From Candidatus Methylomirabilis oxygeniifera (GTDB lineage: Bacteria; Methylomirabilota; Methylomirabilia; Methylomirabilales; Methylomirabilaceae): a DNA stretch of 39,906 nucleotides. Shown piece after piece: positions 19,047 through 23,907 of the stretch; within the stretch, counting starts at the first letter, position 1; each line of letters opens with the position of its first letter. Position numbers and translations under genes: made by a program. The stretch spans positions 1 through 39,906 of the forward strand of contig JACPQX010000110.1 in the NCBI GenBank assembly GCA_016190255.1. Reading direction: 5' to 3'. A model generated the notes under the pieces. That model did not search any database, had not been told where the DNA came from, and was given only the letters and a program-made list of their open reading frames with translations.

Positions 19047-19196
19047 CTACTGTTTCGAAGCGTACTTCTCCGGTGTCTGCTCGAAGGCCCGCTTGCACGC
19101 CTGAGCGCAGAAATAGTAGGTTGTACCCTGATAGACGGCGGTAGCGGGCGCGCGCTTTTCATCCACCATCATTCCACAAACTGGATCCTTCGACAT
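19047..19196 (-). CDS. YHS-domain protein
   Basis: MSKDPVCGMMVDEKRAPATAVYQGTTYYFCAQACKRAFEQTPEKYASKQ; SD gagggagag. Confidence 0.85.
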   Translation of the reverse strand: MSKDPVCGMMVDEKRAPATAVYQGTTYYFCAQACKRAFEQTPEKYASKQ

Positions 19197-19260
19197 CTCG
19201 TCTCTCCCTCGAAAGGCATCACTGAACCTCACCCTTCACCCGGCCCCTCTCCCCACAACT

Positions 19261-19719
19261 CTATCGCCAGGGCCCATACCGGGCGTACTTGGCGTCGATG
19301 GCCGCCTTGATCTCGGGAATTCTCTTCCCCTGCTTGTACATTGCATACGCCTCCAGCGTAATGTCCTGGCACATGTCTCACCCGAACGCGTGTCGATCCA
19401 CGTAGCAGTCGAGATTGTTCTGATGCCTGTGCGACTTGAAACAGCCACAGTAGCAGGGCATCTGCTCGATCAGCTCGGGGACCTCCCTCGCAATCCGGTA
19501 CGCCCGGGCCGTCTTCCCCTGAAACAGCGCCGGCGAAAGCGTTGCGGGACGCGGACGCCTCGGAATCGCCGGAAGGGCTCGACCGCCATGCTCCGCCGCG
19601 TGTGCGGCCGGCCCTCGCCCCGACCTCGATCCGACGAGGAAGCCAAGGAGGCTCCCTGCGAGAGCCCTGAGCACCCGTCGTCGATCAAGTTGTTGAGATG
19701 ATCCTTGCCGTTCGTCCAT
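19261..19719 (-). CDS. PCYCGC-motif protein, Tat-type signal, candidate selenoprotein with in-frame UGA at 19378..19380
   Basis: AGGAGG SD 7 nt before ATG; RRRVLRALAG N-terminus; PCYCGCFKSHRHQNNLDCYVDRHAFG-[TGA]-DMCQDITLEAYAMYKQGKRIPEIKAAIDAKYARYGPWR*. The same frame continues family-like sequence for 38 codons after the TGA. Confidence 0.75.
19344..19363 (-). promoter_or_regulatory. Candidate bacterial SECIS stem-loop
   Basis: CAU-(U bulge)-ACGC-[UGGAG]-GCGU-AUG; loop begins 22 nt after the UGA, G at loop position 2. Confidence 0.55.
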
Positions 19720-19788
19720 GCGGCTCCCTCCTGTAGCAGCGTCTCAGGAAACGTGAAGGTGGTCAGGGCGCAGGCCGCTCGATCCCCC

Positions 19789-22341
19789 TCACCCATTTCT
19801 CTCCCCTGCTGGAGGAGAGGTGAGCGGGGTGGGCCGGAAGCGTCGCAGCCGCAGCGCATTGCCGACCACCGTGACGGAGGAGAGCGCCATGGCCGCCCCC
19901 GCGAGGACCGGGCTCAACAGCATCCCGAACACCGGATAGAGCACACCGGCGGCCACCGGGATCAGGACGACGTTGTACGCGAACGCCCAGAACAGGTTCT
20001 GTTTGATGTTCCGCATCGTCTGTTTGCTCAATTGGAGGGCGGTCACGACGCTTCGCAGGTCGCCGCCGATCAGCGTGATATCCGCCGCCTCCATCGCTAC
20101 GTCGGTCCCGGTCCCGATGGCGATCCCGACATCGGCCTGCGCCAGGGCGGGGGCGTCATTGATCCCATCACCCACCATCGCCACCAACTTCCCCTGCTCC
20201 TGAAGCCTCCGAACCTCCAATGCCTTGTGTTCCGGCAAGACCTCTGCCAACACGCGATCGATCCCGATCTGTCTGGCGATCGCCTCGGCGGTTCGGGGGT
20301 TATCGCCCGTGATCATGGCGACCTCGATACCCAGGCGACGCAGGGCGGCCACTGCCGCTTTCGAATGCGGCTTGACGGTGTCGGCCACGGCCACGATCCC
20401 AAGCAGTTGGCCGTCAGCGGCGACAAACATCGGGGTCTTCCCCTGCCCAGAGAGCGTTTCAGCCGGCTCAGCAATCCCTGTCAGGTCAATCCCGCGCTCT
20501 TGCATCAGGCGAAGATTGCCGAGGAGCACCTCCCTCCCCTCCGCGACCGCCCTGATCCCATAGCCCGGGATCGCCTTGAACTCTTGCGGTCCGGTCAACT
20601 CGAGACCCTCTTCCTTTGCGCGCTCGACGATCGCCTCCCCAAGCGGGTGCTCGGACCCCTTTTCCGCCGACGCCGCCATCCTCAACAGCTCACGCTGCTC
20701 AGGGTTCATGGTTGATAGTTCAGGGTTCAGAGAAGAGATGGGGACCTCTGTCTGTGAACTATGAACTGTGAACTGTGAACTCGCAATAATGTCGGTGACC
20801 GACGGGTGGCCGACAGTCAGCGTACCGGTCTTATCGAAGACGACCACCCCAACCCGACATGCCTGCTCCAGGCTCTCGGCGTTCTTGATCAGCACACCGT
20901 GGTCTGCCCCCCTTCCGGTTCCGACCATAATCGACGTGGGGGTGGCAAGACCCAAGGCGCAGGGGCAAGCGATCACCAGGACGGCCACGAAATTAGAAAG
21001 CGCGAACAGGAACGAAGGCTCTGGGCCAAGGAAAAGCCAGACACCGAACGTCACGACCGCGATCACGAGGACGATCGGCACGAAGACCCCGGCGATCTTG
21101 TCCACCAGCCGCTGGATGGGCGCCTTTGAGCCCTGGGCCTGTTCGACCAATCGGACGATCTGAGCCAGGGCGGTCTCCCGTCCCACCTTGATGGCCTCGA
21201 AGGTGAAGCTGCCTGTCTTGTTCAAGGTTGCCCCGATCACCGGATCCCCCGGACCCTTCTCCACTGGAAGGCTCTCGCCGGTCAGCATCGATTCATCGAG
21301 GGCCGATCTGCCCTCGCGGATGACCCCGTCCACCGGCACCTTCTCCCCGGGCCGAACCAGGACGAGGTCACCGGCCCGGACCTCCTCCACCGGGATGTCT
21401 TGCTCCAGGCCGCCACGGATCACCCGCGCGGTCTTGGCCTGGAGCCCCATCAGTCTCCTGATCGCCTCGGAGGTCCGACCTTTGGCCTTGGCCTCAAGCC
21501 AGCGGCCCATGACGATGAGGGTCATGAGGATCGCCGCGGTGTCGTAGTAGGTCATCGCCTCCATCCCATGAGGAGCGATGGCCGCGGGGAAGAAGGTCAG
21601 GGCGACACTGTAGAGGTAGGCGGCGTTCGTGCCGATCGACACGAGGGTGTTCATGTCGGCAGTCTTGTGTTTCAGGGTCGTCCAGAATCCTCGATGGAAC
21701 TGCCAGCCGACCCAGAACTGAACCGGCGTGGTGAGCAACAGGAGCACGAAGGAGTTCGACAGAACCGCCGGCGCCCATGGAAACCAGTTGGGAAAGCTTC
21801 CCAACAGAACCGGGACGCTCAGAGCCGACCCGACCAGGAATTTGGTTCGAAGGAGGCCGATCTCCGCCTCCCGCGCCCCCTCTTCCCGATCGGGCGATGC
21901 GGACGCGGACGCCGCCGCCAGATCCGGCACTCGATACCCTGCCTCCTCGATCGCCTTCCGGAAACTGGCCGGCTCAGCGACCGAAGGAAGGTACGACACC
22001 GTGGCACGCTCTGCGGCGAAGTTCACCTCGGCGCTCACGACACCGGGGGTCTTCATAAGCGCGTTCTCGATCCGTTGGACGCAGGAGGCACAGCTCATTC
22101 CCTGAATCGGTATCTCAATCTGCGTAGCGAACCCGACCATCTCAGGATCTTTTCGCCTGATCTCCAGCGGCCTCAGTGACACGGCCTCGACCGCGGATCC
22201 GGATAGATAACGATCCGGCGACTTGTCGAACGTCTCCTTGCAGGCGGCCGCGCAGAAATAGTAGTCCACTCCTTTGTAGCGGCTCGTGCCGGCCGCCTCC
22301 TCCGGGAGCACCTCCATGCCACAGATCGGATCTATTGCCAT
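19789..22341 (-). CDS. copA: Copper-type P1B ATPase with N-terminal YHS and HMA domains
   Basis: [38 protein letters not shown] (YHS); [15 protein letters not shown] (HMA); [57 protein letters not shown]. Start at 22341, not 22623. Confidence 0.93.
20703..20783. repeat. Two-armed inverted heptanucleotide array inside the copA coding sequence
   Basis: ggttcatggttgatagttcagggttcagag, about 19 nt, ctgtgaactatgaactgtgaactgtgaactcg; translated in frame as [29 protein letters not shown]. Confidence 0.88.
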
Positions 22342-23531
22342 CGACGCTTCTCCCGAGCCCCTCGTTCGCCGCCCATCTGCTCCCGATCGGTCCACCCGCC
22401 CAACAGCAGGCCCAGGGGCCGTGGAATCTCCGCCCAGACACGGTCGGCGAAGGACCTGTAGCTCTCCTGCCCCATCAAGACCTTCCTGTAGAAGTCGATT
22501 GCCCCGGGGCGCCGCTTCAGCGCCTTGAACCAGAGCCAGGGCAGCCGATGAGCTAGGCGGCTGAGTCGGCCGGCCGCCTCGAGTTCCGGCGTGATTCCGG
22601 TCGAGATCGCCGTTTGATACCACGCAAGGTCACCCCCATTTCGCTCGGCGCTGAGGATCGCCCTGGCAGCCAATTGCCCGCTAAGGATCGCATAGTAGAT
22701 CCCCTCTCCAAGAAACGGATCGACGAGGGCGGCCGCATCACCCGTGAGCAGCGCGCGGCCTTGATACAACGGCCCTGAGTTGCCGCCATGTAGCGGGATC
22801 AGCGCCCCGTGGGTCCGCGAAAGTTTCCCTCCGCCGAAGCCGCCCGCCCCCAGGAAGGTCTCCAAACAATGAGATGCGGTCCTCGCCGCCGCGCGGCCGA
22901 CCATCGCGCCAACCGAGGCAACGTCTCGCTTCGGAAAGGCCCAGCAGTAGCCGCCGGAGGCGCGGCCAAGCTCGATCACCACCCGGCCTTTGAGCGCGGG
23001 GGCGGCACCCGCTAATGGAAGGTCAGCATCCAGGCCGACAGCTCGGGCCTTCCGGCGAGTCGAGAAGAGGTCCCTTGCCACAACCCCGGAGGCGCCATCG
23101 GCCCCGACCAAGAAGTCGCCGGCCTCCATCTTGCCATCGACATCGACCTCGACTCGGTTATCCGCTTGCCTCACAGCCCGAACCGTGAGCCCGTCATGGA
23201 GCTCGGCGCCAGCCTCAACCGCCCTCAGGCAGAGCGCTTGATCGAACCGGTCGCGCCAGACCGTGTAGGCCATCGGTTCCCGGATCCTCGCCTCGATCGG
23301 CTCGCGACCGCGGTAGGTGAACGTCAGGCCGGTGATCGTGTCCTCGACGAGGTCCGCCGGATCGAAGTCAAGGAGTCCCGCCACGCGCCGGGACAGGCAT
23401 CCGCCACAGGCCTTGTAGCGAGGCAGCCGCCGACGCTCCAGTAGCAGCACCCTCGCGCCTGCCTGCGCCAACCCACGAGCAGCCGTGGCCCCGGCCGGCC
23501 CTCCCCCTACGACGATCGTATCGTATCGCAC
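22332..23531 (-). CDS. Geranylgeranyl reductase family FAD-dependent oxidoreductase
   Basis: [95 protein letters not shown] start. Confidence 0.88.
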
Positions 23532-23548
23532 TACACGCTCCCGCGACC

Positions 23549-23827
23549 CTACCGCGTATACCGCGAAAAGACCTCGAGGAGTTCCTCGATCTTCTTCTGG
23601 CGATCCCCTGCACGCCCGGAGGCCACCGCGTCGGCCACGCACGACTCGATGTGACGCCCGAGGAGGATCTTGCTCACCTGCTCCAGGGCCCCCTGGATGG
23701 CCGAGATCTGCAAGAGGATATCGACGCAGTACTTCTCCTCCTCCACCATCCGCCGGACCCCTTGCACCTGGCCCTCGATTCGGTTCAGGCGCGCCATCGC
23801 CTTCTGCTTCGTCGTCTCGTCGATCAC
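23549..23827 (-). CDS. csoR: CsoR/RcnR-family metal-sensing repressor (DUF156)
   Basis: ARLNRIEGQVQGVRRMVEEEKYCVDILLQISAIQGALEQVSKILLGRHIESCVADAV; Cys-His-Cys ligand set typical of CsoR. GTG start after a GGAGGGG-type SD. Confidence 0.9.
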   Translation of the reverse strand: MIDETTKQKAMARLNRIEGQVQGVRRMVEEEKYCVDILLQISAIQGALEQVSKILLGRHIESCVADAVASGRAGDRQKKIEELLEVFSRYTR

Positions 23828-23857
23828 CGCCCCTCCTCCTTCTTGACGCGGATTGGA

Positions 23858-23879
23858 ATACTCTACTCCTGTAGGGTAT
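23858..23879. promoter_or_regulatory. Putative CsoR operator
   Basis: ATACTCTA-ctcctg-TAGGGTAT, 7/8 matched inverted repeat just upstream of csoR. Confidence 0.6.
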
Positions 23880-23907
23880 ACCATACGGGGCAGATTGTCA
23901 AGGCTCT

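Follow-up and report, generated by a model that had tools for sequence, protein, structure and literature searches.

The locus examined here raises the question of whether a UGA codon inside a small gene of a copper-related gene run ends translation or is read as selenocysteine (Sec). In the window, which is the whole analysed stretch of 39,906 nucleotides, the open reading frame by translation table 11 ends at TGA 19378-19380. The initial annotation had described this stop as being followed by a continuation in the same frame to a proper TAG, and this description was borne out, since translation from 19719 to 19261 with TGA as U gives 152 residues, ...PCYCGC...NNLDCYVDRHAFG-U-DMCQDITLEAYAMYKQGKRIPEIKAAIDAKYARYGPWR, and then TAG; its coordinates were correct, while the strand, which it had left out, is minus. 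The good Shine-Dalgarno sequence, the Tat-like signal peptide (DRRRVLRALAG at the N-terminus) and the neighbours it had named, YHS downstream and a CopA-type ATPase upstream, were all found as described (Table 1). Likewise, the TGA replaces the first Cys of the conserved PF13798 CxxC to give U-D-M-C, and in the organism's own genome the match to PF13798 spans the TGA (55.2 bits against a cut-off of 25, with Cys replacing U). Along the protein, the Tat-like N-terminus is followed by PCYCGC, a conserved His, DCY, a second His and U-D-M-C. Judging from the comparisons below, the UGA is almost certainly recoded as Sec at position 114. The explanation favoured as a whole, to which we assign a probability of roughly 0.93, is that the gene encodes a member of the CYCXC (OS_HP4) family with Sec114 inserted via SelB and a hairpin, and that the product would be an exported Cys/Sec protein encoded beside a copper ATPase. 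A mechanical search of the window for other recoded genes was also made, and most of its candidates look like frames running antisense to real genes or like the normal ends of genes.

Table 1. Features of the selenoprotein locus and its gene run, in positions of the window.
Feature	Coordinates	Strand	Remark
CYCXC family (OS_HP4, PF13798) selenoprotein gene, predicted	19261..19719	-	152 aa including one Sec, stop TAG
In-frame TGA, predicted Sec114 in U-D-M-C	19378..19380	-	TGA likewise present here in all 81 class homologues
Predicted bacterial SECIS hairpin	19343..19363	-	+17 to +37 counted from T of TGA
Apical loop TGGAG of predicted SECIS	19351-19355	-	bulged U at +20
N-terminal Tat-like signal peptide (DRRRVLRALAGSLLGFL...AHA-A)	19591..19719	-	putative cleavage point
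Shine-Dalgarno AGGAGGG, 6 nt 5' of ATG	19726..19732	-	direct reading of sequence
YHS-domain small protein, downstream	19047..19232	-	no internal TGA
Copper-type P1B ATPase, HMA and fused YHS domains, directly upstream	19789..22623	-	
FAD-dependent oxidoreductase, same gene run	22332..23642	-	
CsoR/RcnR-type metal-sensitive repressor, head of gene run	23549..23884	-	

The evidence from related genomes carries most of the argument. Searching 95 genomes of one class (NC10/Methylomirabilota including Rokubacteria) with PF13798 gave 81 matches from 70 genomes, each with an in-frame TGA, and in every one of them this codon opens the same U-x-x-C, while Cys occurs there in none (0/81). Because all 81 carry TGA at exactly the same codon, the TGA of the window gene is not a matter of chance; the comparison of TGA with TGC or TGT in related genomes, which the initial annotation had proposed, found TGA independently in 70 genomes. 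The 81 loci were grouped by the residues following the motif into A (15), A2 (4), B (18) and C (44; L002-L031, L041-L052 and L070-L071), group A comprising the genus of the window and one member from outside it. In an alignment of 72 of the 81, eight columns are invariant (P63, C89, C91, C93, H99, C105, U114 and C117, in the numbering of the window protein) and H110 is nearly so. Protein-coding constraint, as judged from nucleotide differences, persists beyond both the TGA and the hairpin; within group A, differences at codon positions 1, 2 and 3 were 0.139, 0.077 and 0.346 over codons +13 to +33 past the TGA. Twin-Arg-like N-termini were found repeatedly among the homologues of the genus. Within PF13798, group C forms a divergent Sec subfamily, in which about 11 inserted residues precede UxxC.

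A Rfam scan of the window gave no matches, and the SECIS was therefore judged by comparison. A hairpin lies at a fixed distance 3' of the TGA among the class homologues, and the 48 nt from the TGA are more stable than synonymous shuffles, with a mean z of -1.36 over 80 related sequences that are not independent samples. The stem pairs are retained in nearly every sequence, and A2 and B differ in a compensatory manner at two of them (19-35, A-T/T-A; 20-34, G-C/T-A), as does group C at pair 23-29. The apical loop occupies +25 to +29 in groups A, A2 and B, where it reads TGGA and one further base, and its counterpart in group C, CGTGA or CGGGA, spans +24 to +28; a loop of UGGA places a G in its first positions, as is characteristic of bacterial SECIS elements. 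A single pairing register for all groups was ruled out, the index sum being 54 in A/B and 52 in C, and within group A the sum shifts from 54 to 53 below the bulged U. Moreover, uncommon synonyms are frozen in the hairpin when compared with the neighbouring genes, as for TCT (18/18, against 5% of Ser codons), ATT (15/15, 19% of Ile) and CGT (35/44, 14% of Arg), together with TAT (15/15, 37% of Tyr) and GTG (43/43, 35% of Val). SelB, guided by this hairpin right after the UGA, would insert Sec at residue 114, which would be the first residue of the U-x-x-C pair.

As for the machinery, the initial annotation had pointed to selA, selB, selC and selD, of which selA (595 bits), selB (382 bits) and selD (401 bits) are present in the organism's own genome, all above cut-off, while selC, the tRNA-Sec, was not found in its assembly, which is 80% complete. 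The selD gene (contig C127, 11242-12168) has one in-frame TGA, reading GAGUACK, which we take to be the usual Sec site of SelD, and this SelD is itself predicted to carry Sec. The weak tRNA-Sec candidates in the assembly are Gly, Tyr and Trp tRNAs, and the 2.2 kb surrounding the tRNA-Sec of a relative have no match there, so that both the gene and its flanks are missing, which fits an assembly gap and falls short of proving one. In the class, tRNA-Sec is above cut-off in 79 of 95 genomes; in the genus, it reaches at least 65 bits in 12 of 15 genomes, for three of which ARAGORN agrees.

These observations bear directly on the two other ways of reading the codon. Table 11 takes TGA as a stop, and a real stop would leave a truncated protein or a pseudogene; this is very improbable when TGA stands at the same codon in all 81 homologues with the downstream frame open, coding constraint continues past it, and the part beyond it includes an invariant Cys as well as a conserved tail. 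Hardly more probable is the decoding of TGA as another amino acid, for example Trp as in codes 4/25, or as Cys through a suppressor tRNA charged with Cys: UGA has been reassigned in some lineages and homologues do carry Cys at this position, yet many homologous genes of the class end in TGA as a true stop, selA, selB, selD and a putative Sec-containing SelD are encoded in the genome, and the hairpin 3' of the TGA is what the SelB pathway requires. Under Sec recoding, standard gene calling truncates the protein at the UGA, and the conserved UxxC is consequently lost from the annotation of these genomes; the present evidence corrects the gene annotation and supplies a SECIS with comparative support.

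Outside the class, a genome scan found TGA forms in Deltaproteobacteria, one Acidobacterium and isolate ODZ_NOB7a, while TGC or TGT occupies the Sec codon in other Acidobacteria (Acidobacteriota), Desulfatiglandales, an Anaerolineales and another Chloroflexi (Chloroflexota) genome, in line with the Cys-bearing homologues of the initial annotation. In a poorly resolved tree of 86 usable columns, Cys forms fall at at least three separate places among the Sec forms, and the distribution, as read from these sequences, is one of classical Sec/Cys alternation. Absence of selA was ruled out as the cause of the split, for selA is present in 8 of 9 Cys-form genomes. In two Cys forms (L128 and L141), a hairpin-like sequence, judged by eye, is retained at the SECIS position, and may be left over from a Sec-to-Cys replacement. 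Isolate ODZ_NOB7a carries TGA at this codon, yet no selA over the cut-off in its genome, for which an incomplete assembly or a mis-binned contig is a possible explanation. The closest Sec relatives outside NC10 are delta-type bacteria (L120-L123 and L130; 64-68% identity for four of them), whose hairpin is nearly identical to that of NC10, and horizontal exchange between the two is possible.

The initial annotation had also proposed a new Sec-for-Cys family, and this part did not hold. The window protein matches the NCBIfam equivalog model NF041379, 'CYCXC family (seleno)protein' (OS_HP4_CYCXC), with 127 bits against a cut-off of 90 (E 2.1e-37, profile positions 2-89 of 90). A 'hypothetical protein OS_HP4' with UxxC is listed among selenoproteins in two reviews, with reference to Zhang & Gladyshev 2007 (PMC9312934; PMC13188914), and OS_HP4 has been tied to PF13798 (PMC13188914). 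The protein belongs to this known selenoprotein family, listed since 2007. In addition, one genome of the NC10 phylum reportedly has a very large predicted selenoproteome (PMC13188914). The group C representative scores 61 bits with NF041379, below its cut-off of 90, and 113 bits with PF13798, and the group C subfamily may be overlooked by the current model. The class-wide fixation of Sec and the divergent Sec group C are modest extensions of the CYCXC family.

With regard to function, the product is best read as an exported Cys/Sec protein for thiol-disulfide (redox) or metal handling. Its export would probably proceed via Tat, and a redox-active and/or metal-binding centre is probably made up of the invariant CxCxC...H...C...UxxC set together with the second His, which is nearly invariant. 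Such a centre may cooperate with the copper-exporting ATPase encoded beside the gene, for instance as a reductant or carrier of Cu, or in the extracytoplasmic repair of oxidised thiols. At every locus of the genus examined, the one in the window and 8 others, the copper-type ATPase precedes the selenoprotein gene, often with the FAD oxidoreductase and the CsoR-type repressor farther upstream; in several genomes of the genus, the FAD oxidoreductase lies between the CsoR-type repressor and CopA. A role in copper handling in this genus, as suggested by these neighbours, stands at about even odds. The gene surroundings are not uniform across the subfamilies: in group B a Fer4_5 membrane protein comes next, with cytochromes and an EB_dh-type protein farther on, and the three group C loci examined showed no copper genes alongside. 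L103 of G016, the sole member of group A that falls outside the genus, adjoins a TlpA-like protein and not a copper-type ATPase. The Fer4_5 membrane protein and cytochromes were observed after the group B genes L105-L111, and such neighbours hint at a role in electron transfer. No description of a selenium-copper link for the CYCXC family was found in the accessible literature. A broader proposal, namely that all PF13798 proteins found in the class, those of group C with a representative below the NF041379 cut-off among them, keep Sec and never have Cys, and that copper export in Methylomirabilis has this protein as a selenium-dependent component, is tentative and rather doubtful as a whole. 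The regular pairing with a copper ATPase is a testable lead on the role of the CYCXC family in NC10 bacteria.

A rival view of the function, which does not compete with Sec recoding, sees the protein mainly as a CcmH/TlpA-linked thiol-disulfide oxidoreductase of cytochrome c or cupredoxin maturation and not as copper-specific. The AlphaFold model of the window protein is confident for residues of about 61-148, and its best PDB fold match by Foldseek is CcmH 2hl7 (probability 0.80, E 0.6), which speaks for this view, as does the hhalign pairing of UxxC with the RCxxC of CcmH (PF03918), although the profile match is not significant (P 0.001, probability 14-21%, the upper value belonging to the pairing cited in its favour). 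TlpA-like genes near L120, L122, L123, L141 and L142 and a DsbD_TM-like protein just below the Pfam cut-off near L104, in addition to the TlpA-like neighbour of L103, point the same way. Against it, the fold match was not reproduced with the better group C model (mean pLDDT 95.9), and the gene stays beside CopA in the genus of the window. Comparison of the AlphaFold models with the PDB found no solved relative or confident fold match, and homology to CcmH was not supported, the profile being not significant and the fold match weak and not reproduced. A role of the protein chiefly in CcmH/TlpA-linked maturation is accordingly a minority view, unlikely on the whole.

Among known systems, CcmH (PF03918) offers a loose likeness, with helices and a G-K-x-x-x-E-I...Y stretch coming after a CxxC, but it is without CxCxC and is not claimed as a relative. 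The PCYCGC lipoproteins of Firmicutes, such as Parageobacillus AOT13_14730, have PF13798, the PCYCGC motif and further conserved cysteines (PMC13068155), and share the Pfam domain and the motif with the window protein, whereas they are described as Cys-containing lipoproteins and not as selenoproteins (PMC13068155). Closest is OS_HP4/CYCXC itself (NF041379), the curated model of which the window protein passes with the same UxxC and a predicted Sec at the same site, and close Sec relatives of the window protein occur in Deltaproteobacteria, hosts of the type where the family was first discovered. What sets the window protein apart within the family is its NC10/Methylomirabilota host, the fixation of Sec in all class members seen, and its place in a gene run with CsoR, the FAD oxidoreductase, CopA and YHS.
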